Part shown: positions 1-62,111 of the stretch, piece after piece
How the letters are laid out: each line of letters starts with the position of its first letter
Numbering within the stretch: position 1 is the stretch's first letter
Assembly: GCF_007990525.1 (NCBI RefSeq)
Contig: NZ_AP019823.1
Coordinates: 2,170,001-2,234,000, forward strand
DNA: 64,000 nt
Direction of reading: 5' to 3'
Source of the DNA: Leptotrichia hofstadii
GTDB lineage: Bacteria; Fusobacteriota; Fusobacteriia; Fusobacteriales; Leptotrichiaceae
The notes under the pieces: model-generated
Seen by the model: only the letters and a program-made list of their open reading frames with translations
Database searches by the model: none
What the model was told of the DNA's origin: nothing
Program-made: the position numbers and the translations under genes

Positions 1-55
1 ACGACAATTTTAATTTAGTTATAACAACTATTCTAATTAAAAGATTTTCGAGCAA

Positions 56-223
56 AATTTCGTTAGAAGAAAAATAGCTGTTTGAGCTTTTGAAATATTT
101 TTTAATTATACATATTTATTTAGATATAAAATAATTTTTGTTCAAAAGCGAGTTCTATTTTTCTTTTATAAGAAAGTTTTGCGGTAAGCGGGGTTGTAAG
201 GGCATGGCGTCTGATGCCCTTAC
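56..223 (+). repeat. Palindromic hairpin element, copy B1
   Basis: A long imperfect hairpin has perfect 10-bp arms, AGAAAAATAG at 68-77 and CTATTTTTCT at 155-164. It is followed by a compact hairpin at 196-223, stem GTAAGGGC/GCCCTTAC with 12-nt loop ATGGCGTCTGAT. The same arrangement recurs almost unchanged at 61675-61848, and related hairpins occur at 31012, 54404, 54644 and 61457. It sits downstream of the glycan genes. No ORF is visible in it. Confidence 0.8.
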
Positions 224-299
224 GTTAGAAAAGATTAAAATTATAAAAGAAAAAGCTATTATTAATAAAAATAATCTAAAATAAATATCAAAAATATAA

Positions 300-14729: not shown

Positions 14730-15123
14730 TTTATACTAAACTCAATTTAAATAAAAAATTTATTACAAACTTTTCTAATAAGAGATATAAACCTAGTATT
14801 TCAAAATAATTAAAATATTTTTTTTGTTTTAATAAATCGACGAAGCTTTTATTTGTTCAACTGCGATTGTTTGACGACTGAAAGGAGGAGTTTCGAAGTT
14901 GGGCAAATAAAAGTCGGAGTCTAGCCATAGGTTGTAGGATTTGCGGCAATGAGCAATCCTACGAAAATAAAAAAGAAAAAACATGGTAATATGAAAAAAA
15001 ATTCATTAATCAAAATACCTAAAAAATAATAAAAAACAATTTAGTTAAATGATTATGAATTAACTATAAAACAACCTTATTATAAAAATTTATTCTTATT
15101 TTTTAACGGGATTTAGTATTAAA
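14730..15123 (+). repeat. MITE-like element D, copy 1, containing hairpin unit A
   Basis: 394 bp bounded by TTTATACTAAAC on the left and ATTTAGTATTAAA on the right. Both internal flanks match, in inverted orientation, those of the copy at 39968-40330 (for example the stretch around TTCTAATAAGAGATATAAAC). Its centre carries a long hairpin with arms CTTTTATTTGTTCAACT and AGTTGGGCAAATAAAAG, and the compact hairpin GTAGGATT-loop-AATCCTAC at 14934-14962 with loop TGCGGCAATGAGC. It occupies the gap between the second FHA gene and the PP2C gene. No coding capacity seen. Confidence 0.75.
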
Positions 15124-19982: not shown

Positions 19983-20381
19983 ATATTTTTAATATTTTTA
20001 GATTTTATAAATTATACTATTTGTCATTAAAATAATAGAATTATAGTAAAACTTCTTTGAAACCGAACTCAAAAGTCATGACTATTTTACTCAAACTCTA
20101 AATTCATATAATTTTTAGTAGTTTAATTTTAAACAGGTTAGAGTACAGTATAATTTTTTTATGCAACAAAATATAATTTCTGTTTTTTAAATTTGGGTTA
20201 GCATTAGATATGCTTGATAACCGTTTAAATTTAAAGTAAATATTGTTTAACAATGGTAAAGAACTCTTTGTTATTCAGGAAACTATTAGATAAATCACGA
20301 TAAAATCAAAAACAAGTAAATCTTGAATTTTAATAAAGTCGTTATAATACTTGAAAATAGTAAAGGGGAAAAGGTAAAAAT
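19983..20381. other. AT-rich intergenic region with repeat C and a -10-like element
   Basis: Holds repeat C (20043-20132). A TATAAT at 20343-20348 lies 34 bp before the next start codon but has no well-spaced -35 (TTGAAT is only 14 bp away). Otherwise nothing recognised. Confidence 0.5.
20043..20132. repeat. Intergenic repeat C, copy 1
   Basis: About 90 bp colinear with 28623-28712, including the identical ATGACTATTTTACTCAAAC and ATATAATTTTTAG segments. The ends are inverted repeats (AAACTTCT and AGTAGTTT here, AAACTGCT and AGCAGTTT in the other copy). Confidence 0.75.
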
Positions 20382-25515: not shown

Positions 25516-25652
25516 AAAATCCTTTCATAAATATTGTTTAGTATATTTTACCTCTATTTACCATGAAAAGCAATAAATTTAAATTTTTTCATAAAATACA
25601 ATCCAAAAAATCCTGTTTTAATCACAACAATTCATTTCTCTAAAATTTTAGA

Positions 25653-25826
25653 CTAATGTCGATTTCCATATTTGTCTTCACAGTAAACGTATCCACTTTC
25701 ATCTTCATAACATCGCACACCTCTTTCGGCTCTTCTTTTATTATATGCTGCCCATTCTTTCGGGCTGAACAATTCACAGCTTACCGTAGTTATTACAAGT
25801 ATTACAATTAAAAATATTTTTTTCAT
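25653..25826 (-). CDS. Small lipoprotein (57 aa), paralogue of the gene at 7757
   Basis: The ATG at 25826 is chosen because AAGGAAG lies 9 nt upstream; two earlier in-frame start codons are too close to it. MKKIFLIVILVITTVSC is a lipoprotein signal. The mature chain has CELFSPKEW, R-C-Y-E-D and Y-V-Y-C-E-D, matching the pattern of the protein at 7757-7927. Function unknown; the conserved pair of extra cysteines hints at a disulfide-held mini-domain on the outside of a membrane. Confidence 0.75.
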   Translation of the reverse strand: MKKIFLIVILVITTVSCELFSPKEWAAYNKRRAERGVRCYEDESGYVYCEDKYGNRH

Positions 25827-25947
25827 AAACATCAACTTCCTTACAGTTTTTTGTTTTATTATAACAAATGTTTATAATATTATAATTTCAATTGTTTTTT
25901 TTTTAGGGGATTAGAGTTTACTTTGTAATATAGATTTTTGTAAATTT

Positions 25948-25972
25948 AAAACGAGGATATTAAATCCTCGTC
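25948..25972 (-). terminator. Rho-independent terminator of glgP
   Basis: ACGAGGAT and ATCCTCGT form an 8-bp stem followed by a T run on the minus strand, directly after the glgP stop. Confidence 0.85.
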
Positions 25973-25981
25973 TTATAAAAT

Positions 25982-28246
25982 TTATTTAGTTTTCCAGATT
26001 TCATTTTCATATTGTGCGATTGTTCTGTCTGATGAGAAGAATCCTGCTTTTGCTATGTTGTTTATTACTTTTTTGTACCACAAGTCTTTGTTTTCATAGT
26101 CTTTAAACATTTTTTCTTTTGTGTTGTAGTAATCTTCAAAGTCGATTAATGTCATGAACCAGTCTTTGTTTATCAATTCATTTTGAAGTCTTTCTAATCT
26201 TTCTTTATTTCCTACTTTTAATAATTTGTCTGAAGTTATGAAATCAACTACTTCTTTTATTCCATCTTGCTTGTAGTAATCTTTTGAAACATAACCTGAA
26301 GTTTCGTATAGTTTAATTATATCATCACTATTTTTTCCAAAAATGTAGATATTATCATCGCCTACAAGCTCATGAATTTCCACATTTGCTCCATCCATCG
26401 TTCCAAGAGTCAATGCTCCATTTAGCATAAATTTCATATTTCCAGTTCCACTGGCTTCTTTTGAAGCAAGCGAGATTTGCTCAGAAATATCTGTTGCTGG
26501 AATAATTTTTTCAGCTAACCCTACATTGTAGTTTTCAACTAGGTAAACATTTAAGTATTTGTTTACTTCTGGGTCGTTGTTTATTATTTCTGATAGGCAA
26601 AGTATTAAGTGGATTATGTCTTGAGCAATGATATAAGCTGGTGCAGCTTTTCCACCGAATAATACTGTTATCTTTCTTTCTGGTAATTTTCCATTTTTAA
26701 TGTCTAAATATTTTTTAATTACATACAAAGCATTCATTTGTTGACGTTTGTATTCATGGAATCTCTTAATTTGAGTATCAATGATACTGTTTTCATCAAT
26801 AACAATTCCTTGCGTATGCTGTAAATATTTTTTCAATTTAATTTTATTTCCATGTTTAATTTGTGATAATTTTTCATAAACATTCTTATCATCAACATAT
26901 TTTAAAAGTTCTTTTAGATTTTCAGCATCTGTCAAGTATCCTGTACCAATTAATTCTTTCAAGTAATCTGCCAAGTCTTCGTTACAGCTTTCAAGCCATC
27001 TTCTGAATGTAATCCCGTTTGTCTTGTTATTAAATTTGTTTGGATAAATTTCATAAAATTCCTTAAGTTCACTATTTTTCAAGATTTCAGTATGCAAGTA
27101 AGCAACTCCGTTTACACTTGAAGAAAAATGAATATCCATATTTGCCATGTGAACTCTGTTTTGCTCATCTATAATTTGTACTTTTTCATCTGAATATTTA
27201 GCTTTTATAACTTTATCCAATTTTTTTATAATTTCAACAATGTTCGGCACAACTTCTTCCAGATAGTCTAAAGGCCATTTTTCCAATGCTTCTGCCAAAA
27301 TTGTATGATTTGTGTATCCTGTCATTTTTGTTACAATTTCTGTTGCCTCTTCAAAAGAAATATTATGCTCTTCCGTCATAATACGGATTAATTCAGGGAT
27401 TACCATACTTGGGTGTGTATCGTTAATTTGAACGAAGGCATAATCTGCTAAATCGTGAATATTGCTTCCTTTTTCAGTTGCTTCAGCAATAATCAATCTT
27501 GCTGCATTTGATACCATGAAATATTGTTGATAAATACGTAACAATTCCCCTTTTTTTGTACTGTCGTCAGGATACAGGAATAATGTCAGATTTTTTTCAA
27601 TATTTTCTTCATCAAATGATATTCCATTTTCTATCAAATTGTAGTCAACGCTTTCAATATCAAATAAATTCAAATAGTTTTTTGTATCTTTTTCATATCC
27701 TAAAATATCAATTCTTTTTAATTTTGAATGTAAACTGAAGTTTTTGAATTTAACTTCATATCCAATGTTTGTATCTCTTAGCCAGCTTTGGTCTTCTATC
27801 CAGTAATTTGGTTCAGCTGTTTGTTCATTGTTTTTAAAAATTTGCTTAAACAGTCCGCAGTGATAGTTAAGTCCAACTCCTTCTCCATTGATTCCTAAAG
27901 TTGACATTGAATCAACAAAGCACGAAGCAAGTCTTCCAAGTCCACCGTTTCCTAATGAAGGTTCAGTTTCTACTTCTTCAATATGGCTCAAGTTTTTTCC
28001 TGCAACCTTCAATTCTTCCCTTACTTCCTTATAAATTCCCAAATTAATCAAATTATTTGATAATAATTTTCCAATTAAGAATTCTGCAGAAATATAATAT
28101 ATTTTCTTTTTAGATTTGTTTGCAGTTTTTTCATCTGCTCTTTCTTTAACATATTCAAGTAATTTGTAGTAAATTTCCTGATTTGTCATTTCACTTATTT
28201 GTTTTTCGTTTCTTTTTTGTAAAAAATCTGTAAAATTGTAGTTCAC
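25982..28246 (-). CDS. glgP: Glycogen/maltodextrin phosphorylase
   Basis: 754 aa. A PLP-dependent GT35 phosphorylase that releases glucose-1-phosphate from glycogen ends. Visible: [19 protein letters not shown] near the N-terminus, [30 protein letters not shown], and the PLP-lysine block [29 protein letters not shown] near residue 600. The length (shorter than E. coli MalP/GlgP at about 800) is due to a short N-terminus, as in many bacterial forms. It stands alone, unlinked to glgC-glgA, with its own promoter and terminator. Confidence 0.95.
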
Positions 28247-28442: not shown

Positions 28443-28622
28443 CTTTTATAACCCTTAAAAAATGAAATCAATATCTATTTTCTTGTACTTTTATATCTAA
28501 TTAAAATTAAATTATTAGAACAATTATTAAAATAAAAACATAACCTTCAAACGTAGATTTTCATTTCCAGTTTGCTAGATTATGTTTTTTTATTATAATG
28601 GTTAATATATTATGGTTATTCT

Positions 28623-28712
28623 ATAGCAAAACTGCTTTAAATCCGAATTAAAAAGTTATGACTATTTTACTCAAACCCTAAATTTATATAATTTTTAGCA
28701 GTTTAATTTTAA
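28623..28712. repeat. Intergenic repeat C, copy 2
   Basis: Colinear with 20043-20132. Its right end overlaps the last codon of the broken gene at 28710, so it may have been inserted there. The rest of the 28247-28709 gap holds only the glgP leader and promoter. Confidence 0.75.
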
Positions 28713-29365: not shown

Positions 29366-29499
29366 TATTAACACTATTCCTCGTTTAAAAATAGAAATTA
29401 AATTCTATTATAATTAATTTGATAGTTTTATTAAAGAAATCAAACTTAATTCCGTAAATTTTTTGACTTCTGCTTTTTAAACGGCAGCTAGTATAAAAA
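29366..29499. repeat. Short deletion derivative of MITE-like element D
   Basis: The left end (CACTATTCCTCGTTTAAAAA) and right end (TTTTTAAACGGCAGCTAGTA) match the terminal sequences of the 39968-40330 copy, but only about 95 bp remain between them and the hairpin core is missing. The surrounding 29117-29365 stretch shows nothing else. Confidence 0.55.
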
Positions 29500-33237: not shown

Positions 33238-33391
33238 TAAATTTTCTACCTTTCTGTTTTTTATATTGTTTATATTATTCTCCATTTAAATATCAATTAT
33301 TTAATAAATTTTGAATTATATGCTAAATTAGAACTTCTTATATTTAACATAATTTCTAATTTCCAATATTAAATTATTTTGTTTATTTTTC

Positions 33392-33520
33392 GCAGGATTG
33401 CTCATTGCCGCAAATCCTGCACCTATGGCTAGACTCCGACTTTTATTTATCCAACTCCGAAACTCCTCCTTCCAGTCGTCAGACAATCGTAGTTGAACAA
33501 ATAAAAGCTCCGTCGATTTA
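33392..33520 (-). repeat. Hairpin element A, copy without MITE ends
   Basis: On the minus strand it reads: large hairpin with arms CTTTTATTTG and CAAATAAAAG-like sequence, then GTCTAGCCATAGG and the compact hairpin GCAGGATT-TGCGGCAATGAGC-AATCCTGC (33392-33420). Compared with the 14934 and 40066 copies, the second stem pair is C-G instead of T-A: a compensatory change. Lies between the symporter and the alpha/beta hydrolase genes. Confidence 0.75.
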
Positions 33521-33561
33521 TAAAATACATTTTAATTATTTAGAAACATTTTTTTATAACT

Positions 33562-37144: not shown

Positions 37145-37798
37145 ATGAAAAAATTATTTTTTTCGATTTTTTTAATGTTTTGTATCAACGTTTTTTCCAA
37201 TGTAAATTATAATGTTTTTGTAATTATGGATAACAATGCAGCTAAAAATGTGGAAAACATTTCAAAAGGGCTTAAAGATGCAGGAATTGAAAGCCTTTAT
37301 TCCAAAGGATATGCAGTCCATCTGACTCTTTACCTTACAGAATATAAGCCTGAAGCACTAAAAACAATAAAGGATACTGTCAATAAGATTGCAAATCGGA
37401 CAAAATCCTTTGATATAGAATTTTACAGATTAAGAAAAACTGGCGGAAACTGGTTTATGCTTGATGCTCAAAACAATGAAGCTATACAACAGCTTGCAGA
37501 TGAAATAACAGTCAGCTTAAACAAATATCGTGCAAAGGACGCAAAAGTTCCCGACTGGGCAAAATCTATTCCTGAAAAAGTAAAATCCTTTAATTTGTAC
37601 GGCTCTCCAAACGTATTTACAAGTTTTGATCCGCACATAACTTTACTTACTCCAGAAGATTCAGCAAAAATAGATGCATTTACTTCAAAATATGATTTTA
37701 AACCTTTCAAATCTAAAGTCATTGGTATAGGAATCGCTCAAGTTGACGATTTGGGGCAAGCAAAAAATATAATTTATTCGGTAAAATTTAAAAAATAA
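37145..37798 (+). CDS. Exported 2H-phosphoesterase-like protein 1
   Basis: 217 aa. Signal peptide 1-18 (MKKLFFSIFLMFCINVFS). The mature protein has two H-x-T motifs, H59-L-T61 (AVHLTLYL) and H164-I-T166 (DPHITLL), the twin catalytic motifs of 2H phosphoesterases (2'-5' RNA ligase/LigT, CPDase family), placed symmetrically as in that fold. These enzymes act on 2',3'-cyclic or 2'-5' phosphodiesters, usually inside cells; an exported version is unusual. It shares about half its residues with the gene at 38236. Ribosome binding site AGGAGG. Confidence 0.75.
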   Translation: MKKLFFSIFLMFCINVFSNVNYNVFVIMDNNAAKNVENISKGLKDAGIESLYSKGYAVHLTLYLTEYKPEALKTIKDTVNKIANRTKSFDIEFYRLRKTGGNWFMLDAQNNEAIQQLADEITVSLNKYRAKDAKVPDWAKSIPEKVKSFNLYGSPNVFTSFDPHITLLTPEDSAKIDAFTSKYDFKPFKSKVIGIGIAQVDDLGQAKNIIYSVKFKK

Positions 37799-38235: not shown

Positions 38236-39036
38236 ATGATAAAAAAAATATTTTTTTTAGCTTTCATACTACTTTGTTTTAATATTTTTTCCAATGCCGA
38301 TTACAGTACTTCTAATGACGAGGCTAACGTTTCTGCTTCAGATCAAAATTTTAATAATCTAGACATTGGTTCAGTATTCTTAATTATTATTGTAGGAGCA
38401 ATCTTATTTGAATATTTTGGTTCCAATTCCAGTTCAAATGAAAATTATAACGTTTTCATAATTATGGATAATCGTGCAACTAAAAATATTAAAAATATTT
38501 CAAAAAAATTAGAGGAAAATGCAATTGAAAACCTTTATACACAAGGATATGTTATACATGTAACATTATATCTTACAAAATATGAAAAAAATTCTCTATA
38601 TAAAATCAAGGAAACTGTCGAGAAAATTGCAAGCCAGACAAAATCGTTTGATATGGAATTTTACAAGTTAGAAAAAACAGAAAGAAAAACGCTTGCAGTT
38701 TATGCCAAAAATAATCAAAATATTCAGCAGCTTGCAGATGAAATTACAGTCAACCTAACTAAATACCGTAAGAAAGACATAAAAACGCCTGAGTGGGTAA
38801 AATACTTTCCTGAAAAAGAAAAATTGTTCAATTTATATGGCTCTCCGGATGTGTTTATAAACTTTAATCCGCATGTAACCTTGCTTACTCAGGAAAATTC
38901 ATCCAAAATAAATTCATTTATCTCAAATTATACTTTTACTCCCTTCAAAACTAAAGCAATTAGTATAGGAATTGGTAAGGCAAATAACTCAGGGCATACA
39001 AAAGAGATAATTTATTCACAAAGTTTAACCGGCTAA
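38236..39036 (+). CDS. Exported/membrane 2H-phosphoesterase-like protein 2
   Basis: 266 aa. Signal peptide (1-20), then an insert absent from the paralogue that contains an extra membrane helix (about 46-61), then the 2H domain with H108-V-T110 and H213-V-T215. Both catalytic motifs are kept. It would therefore be tethered, while its paralogue at 37145 could be released into the periplasm. Ribosome binding site AGGAGG. Confidence 0.75.
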   Translation: MIKKIFFLAFILLCFNIFSNADYSTSNDEANVSASDQNFNNLDIGSVFLIIIVGAILFEYFGSNSSSNENYNVFIIMDNRATKNIKNISKKLEENAIENLYTQGYVIHVTLYLTKYEKNSLYKIKETVEKIASQTKSFDMEFYKLEKTERKTLAVYAKNNQNIQQLADEITVNLTKYRKKDIKTPEWVKYFPEKEKLFNLYGSPDVFINFNPHVTLLTQENSSKINSFISNYTFTPFKTKAISIGIGKANNSGHTKEIIYSQSLTG

Positions 39037-39967: not shown

Positions 39968-40330
39968 TTTATACTAAACCTCGTTTAAAAATGAGAATAA
40001 ATTTTTATAATAGGATTCTCCAATAGCTAATTCATAACTATTCAATTTTTTTATTTTTCATTTTCGTAGGATTGCTCATTGCCGCAAATCCTACAACCTA
40101 TGGCTAGTCTACGACATTTTCCTGCACTGACAAAAAACTCGCTATGCTCAAACAGTTTTGCCAGCACAGAAAAATGCTCCGACGGATTAGTTCGTGTTAG
40201 ATTCTATTTAAAAAACGAAAATTATATCTTAAATTATTTGAAAATACTAGATTTATATCCTTTATTAGAAAAATTTATAATAAATTCGTTATTTAAATGG
40301 GTTTTAGTATTAAACGGAGTTTAGTATAAA
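39968..40330. repeat. MITE-like element D, copy 2, containing hairpin unit A
   Basis: 363 bp with perfect 12-bp terminal inverted repeats TTTATACTAAAC (39968-39979) and GTTTAGTATAAA (40319-40330). Internal flanks match the 14730-15123 copy in opposite orientation. The core has the compact hairpin GTAGGATT-loop-AATCCTAC (40066-40094) and a larger hairpin whose arms (CATTTTCCTGCACTGACAAA and its partner) differ from those in the other copy but still pair. It is inserted between pflB and pflA. Confidence 0.8.
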
Positions 40331-40339
40331 TTATCATAT

Positions 40340-40392
40340 AATAGAAAAGAATGCCGCATAACTCATATTTTATGAAACTATGCGACATTTCT
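40340..40392 (-). terminator. Terminator-like hairpin after pflB
   Basis: GTCGCATAGTTTCAT and ATGAGTTATGCGGC pair (with G-U), followed by a T-rich tail on the minus strand. pflA would then need read-through or its own promoter. Confidence 0.7.
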
Positions 40393-40444
40393 CATATTAG
40401 TTGAAAATTATCGGTTAATTTTCAGATTTTTTATCAATTTTAAA

Positions 40445-54256: not shown

Positions 54257-54403
54257 AGATAGTAATTATTTTTTACTGACAAGGTTGTAAAGAATCGAAT
54301 TTTATTTCTAAGGATTCAAATTAAATTTTTTTTTGAGTTCTATAAAAAAATTTTTGTTAATGAAGATTTTTTCTATATTTTTCATGTTTTTTCTTTTTTA
54401 AAC

Positions 54404-54671
54404 GTAAAGGGGATCAGTCGCCATCCCCTTTACAATCCTGGCTCGTCTAAGTATTTTTTGATTTAATTACAATAATTAATTTAATAAAAATAAATATTAA
54501 GCAAAATTTGTTAAAGAAAAAAGAACTGTTTAAGCTAAATTAAAAATGTCGTGATTTTTTGGAAATAAAATTGATTGTTTGAGCGAAGTCTCACGTAGCG
54601 AGTTTCAATTTTGTTTTCAAAAAATGCTTAGACAAGCGGGGATGCAAGGGTATGGCGATTGATACCCTTGC
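54404..54671. repeat. Paired hairpin element B2 (BIME-like)
   Basis: A long central hairpin (arms ATTTTTTGGAAATAAAATTG and its partner near 54603-54625) is flanked by two compact hairpins in inverted orientation. Left: GTAAAGGGG/CCCCTTTAC with loop reading ATGGCGACTGAT on the minus strand (54404-54433). Right: GCAAGGGT/ACCCTTGC with loop ATGGCGATTGAT (54644-54671). The flanks AAAAAATGCTTAGACAAGC are repeated inversely too. It occupies the 556-bp gap between the receptor gene and the ATPase gene. Confidence 0.85.
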
Positions 54672-54812
54672 TATAATTAAAGAAATAACATAAAAAATTA
54701 AAGGAAAATATTTATTAACAACGATTTATTTTATAAAAAGACAAAATTAGACATTAAATAAAAATAAATTTGCACAAAAGAATAGTTTTACAATTTAGGA
54801 AAAGGAGGAAAG

Positions 54813-61292: not shown

Positions 61293-61456
61293 TAATAAAC
61301 ACCTCTTATCATAATTTTTGATTTTACTATTTAGTTTTTATATTATAATATCATATTTTAGTTAAAAAAAAATGAGAAATTTATTTTAGTTTCTTTTTTC
61401 TACTTCAAAAAACTCAGCAAAGTTATTTTCTAAATTTTTTTAGATTTTTTTTAAGT

Positions 61457-61645
61457 ATAAAGGGGATCAATCGCCATCCCCTTTATAATCCTGGCTCGTC
61501 TAAGCATTTTTTTGAAATAAAATTGAAACTCGCTTATTAAAAAGTTATTACTAACTCTTAAATTGATTATAACTTAAATGTTTTGAAAAAGCTCAAACAG
61601 TCAATTTCATTCCAAAAAAATCACGACAATTTTTAGTATAATTAC
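61457..61645 (-). repeat. Hairpin element B3, left unit
   Basis: On the minus strand: a long hairpin with arms around TTTTTTTGGAATGAAATTGA, flank CTTAGACGAGCCAGGATT, and compact hairpin ATAAAGGGG-ATGGCGATTGAT-CCCCTTTAT (61457-61486). Head-to-head with the right unit. Confidence 0.8.
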
Positions 61646-61674
61646 AAAAGATAATCTTATTAAAATAAATTTCA

Positions 61675-61848
61675 AGCAAAATTTCGTTAGAAGAAAAATA
61701 GCTGTTTGAGCTTTTGGAACAAATTTTAAATTAGATAAGATTGTTTGAATTAAAATTATTTATATTCAAAAGCGAGTTCTATTTTTCTTCTATAAGAAAG
61801 TTTTGCGTAAAGCGGGGGTTGTAAGGGCATGGCGACTGATGCCCTTAC
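61675..61848 (+). repeat. Hairpin element B3, right unit
   Basis: Nearly identical to the unit at 56-223: long hairpin with arms AGAAAAATAG and CTATTTTTCT, then AAAGCGGGGGTTG and the compact hairpin GTAAGGGC-ATGGCGACTGAT-GCCCTTAC (61821-61848). From 61849 to 62040 only AT-rich DNA follows. Confidence 0.85.
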
Positions 61849-62111
61849 GTCAAAAAAGATTTAGAATTATAAATAAAAAAATAATAATTAATTAAAATAC
61901 TCTAAAAAATAAGTGATTAAGAAAATAACTTAATTAAATAGATAAAAATTTTGTTTAATGGTTACAGAATGATAAAATTCAAATTTTAATTTTTTTATCT
62001 ATTAAATAACAAGTCAATGTGATATAATTTGTCATAAAATATAAGTTATTTTATTTAAGTGGCAGATTTGGGGGAAATTTCAATTATAATATAATCAAAA
62101 GGGGGATTATT

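Follow-up and report, generated by a model that had tools for sequence, protein, structure and literature searches.

A Leptotrichia MITE family carrying a two-hairpin module that may act as RNA

In the genome of Leptotrichia hofstadii, a short repeat with inverted ends and an internal hairpin lies between an FHA and a PP2C gene and, in opposite orientation, between pflB and pflA. This arrangement raises the question of what kind of element the repeat is and what its hairpin is for. The window analyzed comprises 64,000 nucleotides (NCBI RefSeq assembly GCF_007990525.1, contig NZ_AP019823.1, positions 2,170,001 to 2,234,000 of the forward strand), and the coordinates of the two copies and of all other window features are counted from its first letter. 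A sequence-only reading had described the repeat (family D) as a MITE-like, non-autonomous element that captured, or evolved around, a hairpin called unit A.

We confirmed that the two copies of the window resemble transposons, have inverted ends, and lie in opposite orientation, as that reading had seen at 14730-15123 and 39968-40330. Copy 1 (385 bp, type I core; 14734..15118, plus strand) begins with TACTAAACTC at 14734 and finishes with ...ATTTAGTA at 15118, and the target duplication TTA is present on both its left (14731..14733) and right (15119..15121) flank. Copy 2 (338 bp, type II core; 39972..40309, minus strand; flanks TAA/TAA when read in its own orientation) does not include the TATACTAAAC seen further out at 40319-40328; this sequence is part of a remnant (40310..40331, minus strand), namely of what is left of the end of an older resident element that served as insertion target of copy 2. 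The D ends are imperfectly inverted (TACTAAACYCC...GTTTAGTA); the imperfect terminal inverted repeats are also written TACTAAACYCCRTTTAAA..., and the end label used in the searches is TACTAAAC. The gene neighbors were those named before, with copy 1 separating FHA from PP2C_2 and copy 2 separating a PFL-like/glycyl radical gene (pflB) from a radical SAM gene (pflA). Behind pflB, at about 40345-40400 (minus strand), there is a terminator-like hairpin (GTCGCATA...TATGCGGCAT), which can be recognized in the orthologous regions, where the adjoining D element comes and goes.

When the two copies were compared, the 96-nt right arms were 78% complementary (opposite orientations), the 73-nt stretch of linker and unit A reached 93%, and a 46-nt unit A core was identical. 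This core gave 0 matches in 100 shuffles and, thus, is not shared by chance. With arms that align in this way, the earlier statement that both subterminal regions are common to the two copies holds. The middle hairpins are unlike each other, being of type I in copy 1 and of type II in copy 2. Elsewhere in the window we found a decayed D element with type I core (33269..33546, minus strand; module at 33391-33516), which has lost its left end and kept its right one, and, as a fourth copy with approximate limits, a strongly decayed type I module with long-form P2 (8136..8340, plus strand). A small element of 122 bp (29372..29493) has the same ends as D and TAA/TAA flanks and is devoid of the hairpin module.

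BLAST searches of the own genome (G000) with the two copies gave 61 and 63 matches, which were merged by hand into 45 places. A 22-nt end pattern (up to 3 mismatches) matched the whole genome 98 times and its reversed control pattern 3 times; this excess and the inverted pairs identify the ends as terminal inverted repeats. We then queried 13 Leptotrichia genomes with coding fragments flanking 16 of these 45 places. About 150 matches were listed, from which 100 orthologous regions, belonging to 12 sites, were aligned; a D core or arm was present in 37 of these 100 regions (hand count). At site S3, the sequence is uninterrupted in G002, G003, G008, and G010 and reads CTGTTAGTGAGTTTATT (with C for T once in G008). 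The same site is filled in G000 and G004 (GTTAGTGA / TACTAAT...GTTTAGTA / TGAGTTT), and TGA is duplicated. Among distinct elements with both ends, the flanking 3-mers, mostly TTA or TAA, were equal in 21 of 25 cases; the shuffled mean was 10.3, and none of 20000 shuffles reached 21. Because of the clean empty site and these 3-bp duplications, the D element is a MITE, i.e., a non-autonomous DNA transposon with a 3-bp target duplication. The sequence-only reading would have fallen if there had been neither further copies nor empty sites in relatives; with about 45 places, a site S3 that is empty in four relatives, and target duplications on top, its assignment to the non-autonomous mobile elements was borne out.

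As a MITE, a D element would be moved in trans by a transposase. A TNA duplication is also used by IS5 subgroups. The 3-bp duplication given in the text seen of PMC4482050 is TWA for PIF/Harbinger and TNA for NuwaII, and the D elements follow this TWA/TNA rule, which makes PIF/Harbinger and IS5-type transposons similar to them in this respect. The difference is that IS5 is given there with ANT, whereas D elements mostly show TTA or TAA.

The sequence-only reading had suggested looking for a transposase framed by TACTAAAC ends, and for the families tried this check came out empty: the Y1_Tnp (own genome), DUF4096, and DDE_Tnp_1 (13 genomes) transposases have ends other than those of D. The one Y1_Tnp match of the own genome (138 bits; locus L094, G000:C1:710906-711262) resembles an ordinary IS200/IS605 gene with its own neighbors, and a REP/RAYT origin of D was rejected on this ground. 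A broken second copy of a Y1 transposase lies near 1190628 of the same genome. DUF4096 (PF13340, IS5-type) was found in 3 of 13 genomes (G001, G010, G012); the copy that was read has ends AGGGCGTGTCTGAAAACTC and no TACTAAAC pair around the gene, and an IS5-type partner was dropped. An IS5-type DDE transposase with matching ends, by which D could be tied to the PIF/Harbinger-IS5 group, was not among these matches. DDE_Tnp_1 matches occurred in 8 of 13 genomes, and when 30 of their loci were scanned for both kinds of ends, none was framed by either; this candidate was rejected, too. At locus L239 (G000:C1:2449441-2452857) there is a 915-bp DDE_Tnp_1 insertion sequence with one stop in this copy; it is located near 2450941, 20 bp from a D-type end, yet has ends of its own (ACCTGTTCGAYAACTT), and a second copy is found at 84441. 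Locus L204 (G001:C1:2287326-2290514) is a D-plus-IS composite, in which a fragment of an IS5-type transposase is enclosed by two D left arms that are nearly identical and separated by about 1.28 kb. An integron attC reading of the D ends was dropped on inspection against the attC consensus.

What does the element carry? The unit A hairpin does sit inside, as had been noticed, but it does not stand alone: another hairpin, P1, precedes it, and together they make up a two-hairpin module P1 + P2, in which unit A is P2. P1, a long hairpin, stands on a 3-bp foot and has an asymmetric internal loop (GGAG/UCGUA) and the apical motif CUGUYUGAGC...GCGAGUU, in which a tandem G-A step like that of kink-turns might form. 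It exists in two versions, type I with the foot GAC:GTC and type II with the foot GTC:GAC. P2 has an 8-nt loop (GGCRAUGA) and occurs in short and long forms. In copy 1, P1 (14839..14921, plus strand) is of type I, with P1a GAC:GTC, an internal loop, and a long P1b, and is followed by P2 at 14934..14962 (plus strand) with the 8-nt loop GGCAATGA. In copy 2, P1 is of type II (P1a GTC:GAC; 40107..40183, minus strand) and P2 lies at 40066..40094 (minus strand). The folds are much more stable than those of shuffled sequences (z = -5.35 for copy 1 and -4.50 for copy 2). A module with the same P1-P2 fold is present in family B (54546..54672, plus strand; 46.9 bits, E 2.5e-10 with the type II model), and a probable second one with a weak match (12.7 bits, E 0.16) lies at 61457..61600 (minus strand), where it forms a head-to-head pair with a family C module. 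Families B and C (window 1-230, 54350-54680, and 61440-61850) are hairpin repeats, partly arranged head to head, with CTGTTTGAGC...GCGAGTT and GGCGAYTGA loops as conserved features; the P1-P2 fold is shared by B.

For genome scans, a covariance model was built from type II modules. It found 49 modules in the own genome, and 12 of the 13 Leptotrichia genomes contained modules. Beyond the genus, only single weak matches were obtained among 33 genomes of the family and 96 of the order (both sets including the 13 Leptotrichia genomes), namely in G020 (E 6.9e-4, lost at 1e-4), G077 (1.5e-5), and G094 (3.4e-5). No module was found in phages, plasmids, or viral contigs. When the window was compared with Rfam, only RNase P was returned, and copy 1, the family B stretch, and loci L066 and L211 gave nothing above the gathering threshold; the module is not a known Rfam family. 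Among the papers listed on Leptotrichia repeats and noncoding RNA and on MITEs, none names the D element, as judged by titles and the beginnings of abstracts, and an earlier record without a name is possible.

The module is not confined to D. In G007 and G005, the type II model gave 107 and 9 matches, respectively, many of them in head-to-head pairs with about 25 bp between. The G007 element is about 465 bp long, its length at loci with matched ends being mostly 457-480 bp and once 432 bp, and has the ends GATGGTTTAAAAATTTTAGGGG and GACAGAGTAAAATAGTTAGGGG; this end type is also written GATGGTTTAAAA. A 10-bp duplication, in one case shifted by one base, was found in 12 of 16 distinct G007 loci with both ends, a count that leaves out L238 (which repeats the L232 element) and L226 (which comes from G005). 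Since G007 also holds an ordinary TACTAAAC D-type element with TTA/TTA flanks, the module sits on two unrelated elements, with different ends and different duplications, within one genome. The idea that the element had captured the hairpin gains from this finding inasmuch as the module is also carried by a second, unrelated element, whichever way the capture may have gone.

To what extent is the module uniform, and what happens to it at a given site? Among 48 type II elements, P1 identity was 0.961 within genomes and 0.954 at the same site across genomes. The corresponding values were 0.771 and 0.928 for the left arm, and 0.528 and 0.788 for the right arm (each part being present in 34 to 45 of the 48 elements). 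Since within-genome identity matches same-site identity for P1 and does not do so for the arms, concerted evolution, in which the hairpins are overwritten between copies and the arms keep the history of their site, is the clear reading of these data. Among the copies compared, one core signature is confined to G004, where it occurs at three sites. Site S8 carries type II in G000 and type I in G003 and G004, and the outer arms match; here, the P1 type appears to have been swapped inside a resident element. At the FHA-PP2C site, G002 and G004 have type II after the same left junction and the window has type I, but this difference may reflect replacement rather than a P1 swap, since the right arms there also differ. 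Versions of both P1 and P2 are exchanged in resident elements.

Orientation differs between species at S2, S4, S5, S6, and S8. One explanation is an invertible switch, in which the inverted ends let the element flip in place and alter the expression of flanking genes. Between pflB and pflA, the module indeed points one way in G000 and G004 and the other way in G001, G002, G003, and G010, with outer junctions that are near-identical in most genomes. However, right-arm identity between the two orientations is only 0.43-0.48, which is the level of unrelated copies, and copy 2 is nested in an older end, which argues that a newly inserted element took the place of the old one and against inversion. 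The oppositely oriented copies at S4 and S5 have different junctions. In-place inversion was therefore rejected at S2 (unrelated-level right arms, nested end) and at S4 and S5 (different junctions), and we regard a switch as extremely improbable. The opposite orientation at S2 would be better explained by a new insertion into the end of the resident, which was lost thereafter, and those at S4 and S5 by independent insertions. At S6, one D end is replaced in G003 and G002 by a stretch that resembles a 91-bp repeat of the window, the two copies of which (20042-20132 and 28622-28712) are 89% identical.

Whether the fold itself matters was judged from 60 distinct modules of all types. Here, 97.5% of the cells were paired, compared with 76.0% in shuffled alignments and 42-51% for slid structures. 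Of the 34 pairs, 27 had changed on both sides, compared with 22.4 for shuffles and no more than 15 for slid structures, and the covariation score was 0.568 versus 0.182, with 0 of 500 shuffles reaching the observed value; the size of these effects is inflated, as the alignment was fitted to the model and the copies are related. Across types, whole stems are replaced and pairing is retained. Within type II alone (36 rows), no pair changed on both sides and the paired share equaled that of shuffles, and within type I alone (11 rows) there was one pair with both-side changes. Within a type, the copies are too alike for such a test. For these single-type alignments (A1 and A2), long-P2 copies and partial modules were excluded, which left the 36 and 11 rows: 22 of 71 were skipped by the script, others were removed for length or unread bases, and L119 was removed as a short match. 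With a stricter cut-off and two fewer sources, the number of matches fell from 99 to 79, and the 20 weaker ones that dropped out were antisense P1 matches, P2-only pieces, and a few weak modules. Taken together, the data suggest that the fold of P1 and P2 is under selection.

The wobble pairs tell the two strands apart. In the two plain alignments (types I and II), the ratios of G-U to A-C cells were 87:2 and 20:1, and at the level of pair columns there were 15 G-U versus 3 A-C wobbles (two-sided binomial p = 0.0075). Since a DNA hairpin is indifferent to strand and the stems show G-U and hardly ever A-C, these counts point to a module that acts as RNA read from one strand. The same counts bear on the proposal that the hairpins act as DNA, in single-stranded or cruciform form, and, like REP/REPIN sequences, serve a transposase or recombinase as recognition sites during movement. 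For such hairpins, G-T and A-C should be tolerated about alike. The module does occur in many copies and in either orientation, the head-to-head doublets in G007 and G005 are similar to REPINs as these are described in the part seen of PMC3116915, and the own genome contains a Y1 transposase gene. However, that gene is of the IS200/IS605 kind discussed above, and the clean target duplications of 3 bp (D) and 10 bp (G007) fit DDE-type insertion, not HUH single-strand insertion. We consider a DNA role unlikely.

A functionless selfish MITE, the core of which is homogenized by gene conversion and the hairpins of which are leftovers of an inverted duplication, would account for the concerted evolution, for the core signature at three G004 sites, and for the fact that within-type covariation is absent or slight. 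On the other hand, types I, II, G007, and B have diverged at most stem positions and have kept the fold, and conversion alone predicts neither the both-side changes in most pairs nor a one-sided wobble. A MITE of this functionless kind appears distinctly unlikely.

We think it probable that the D element is a MITE with a structured one-strand RNA as cargo, which is folded and then processed or bound in the untranslated region of its neighbors. The module would be transcribed as part of neighboring messages, its RNA would fold in the untranslated region, a host factor would process or bind the folded module there, and insertion between genes would thereby be tolerated or useful. Transcription of the module, an action of a protein or of RNase III on its RNA, and any benefit to the host are inferred; RNA processing or insulation of neighboring transcripts would be the presumed function. 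Among 29 places between co-directional neighbors (own genome, hand count), the module had the same orientation as the genes in 20 and the opposite one in 9 (p = 0.06), an orientation bias that is weak and too weak to settle the role. For a -10 promoter upstream of P1, the best match in types I, II, and B was not above the highest shuffle; only in G007 and G005, which form one lineage, did it exceed all shuffles. There is no U-tract after P2 and no terminator. Because of the lack of a standout promoter outside G007/G005 and of a U-tract, a transcription unit of its own is not evident for the module.

These results bear on another proposal, according to which MITEs have spread a family of trans-acting small RNA genes or a ligand-sensing element. 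A strand-specific fold, conserved loop motifs, and many copies are what one would look for in this case, and part of the G007 lineage has a TATAAT-like box at -19. Yet neither promoter nor terminator is consistent, no gene is consistently located downstream, and presence at orthologous sites differs between species, so that this proposal is very unlikely to be correct. Somewhat less probably than RNA cargo in untranslated regions, a genus-wide class of structured RNA module may itself be the selected unit, which would pass between unrelated chassis, stay uniform within genomes, and swap hairpin versions in resident elements. As a mobile RNA cargo and not the by-product of a single MITE, it would combine P1, possibly with a kink-turn-like tandem G-A loop, and P2 with its GGCRAUGA octaloop.

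How does the module relate to known systems? We know of no sequence shared by CIR elements and the D module, and we do not know of BOX or RUP elements that exchange whole hairpin types while resident at a site. BOX elements are modular. Correia/NEMIS of Neisseria is similar to D as an intergenic MITE with terminal inverted repeats, target duplication, and stem-loops proposed as RNase III substrates with an effect on adjacent messages, and, as far as the text seen of PMC2229807 goes, processing in co-transcripts has been proposed for the transcript stem-loops of both NEMIS and ERIC. It differs in its ends, target duplication, and phylum, and has one long stem instead of two linked hairpins. The closest published architecture is that of CIR (Caulobacter/Brucella), the RNA of which is drawn as two hairpin arms with a linker (PMC2229807); in the text seen of that source, CIR is given without terminal inverted repeats and no second chassis is mentioned, and the comparison is one of descriptions. 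BOX and RUP of Streptococcus pneumoniae resemble D as modular or MITE-like intergenic repeats of high copy number (PMC2267715, in the part seen), but are unlike it in sequence and ends. REPINs, defined as inverted REP doublets in the part seen of PMC3116915, are comparable to the inverted extragenic doublets of G007 and G005. However, our elements have long terminal inverted repeats and target duplications of 3 or 10 bp, and each half is a two-hairpin module of about 125 nt, which is far larger than a REP. No RAYT was seen, the one Y1_Tnp match of the own genome reading as IS200/IS605. Finally, manA-II, a structured RNA candidate of Leptotrichia, precedes manA and a pflA-like gene (PMC11109978, in the part seen, where a class of mobile or repeat motifs is also defined). 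By description, manA-II consists of a three-stem junction and two hairpins ending in a terminator, with fixed downstream genes; the D module, which we set apart on this description, has two hairpins and shows neither the junction nor a terminator nor a fixed gene.

MITEs with stem-loop transcripts are known, but whether the fold is important or a by-product of inverted repeats is usually unclear. Here, the same two-hairpin fold is found on two element types, with stems that differ and still pair and with wobbles of one strand, and this combination makes the idea of RNA as cargo directly testable. With its frequent swaps at orthologous sites, Leptotrichia, a genus of mouth bacteria, is also well suited to studies of how short repeats evolve in concert.

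Two observations on the surrounding genes may be added. The window contains a short lipoprotein-like ORF (MKKIFLIVILVITTVSCELFSP...) at 25516-25990 (minus strand), and coding stretches resembling it adjoin D copies near genome positions 592500, 825100, 1917900, and 2316000. At 37145-37798 and 38236-39036 of the window, there are two neighboring related genes with 72% DNA identity over 300 nt.
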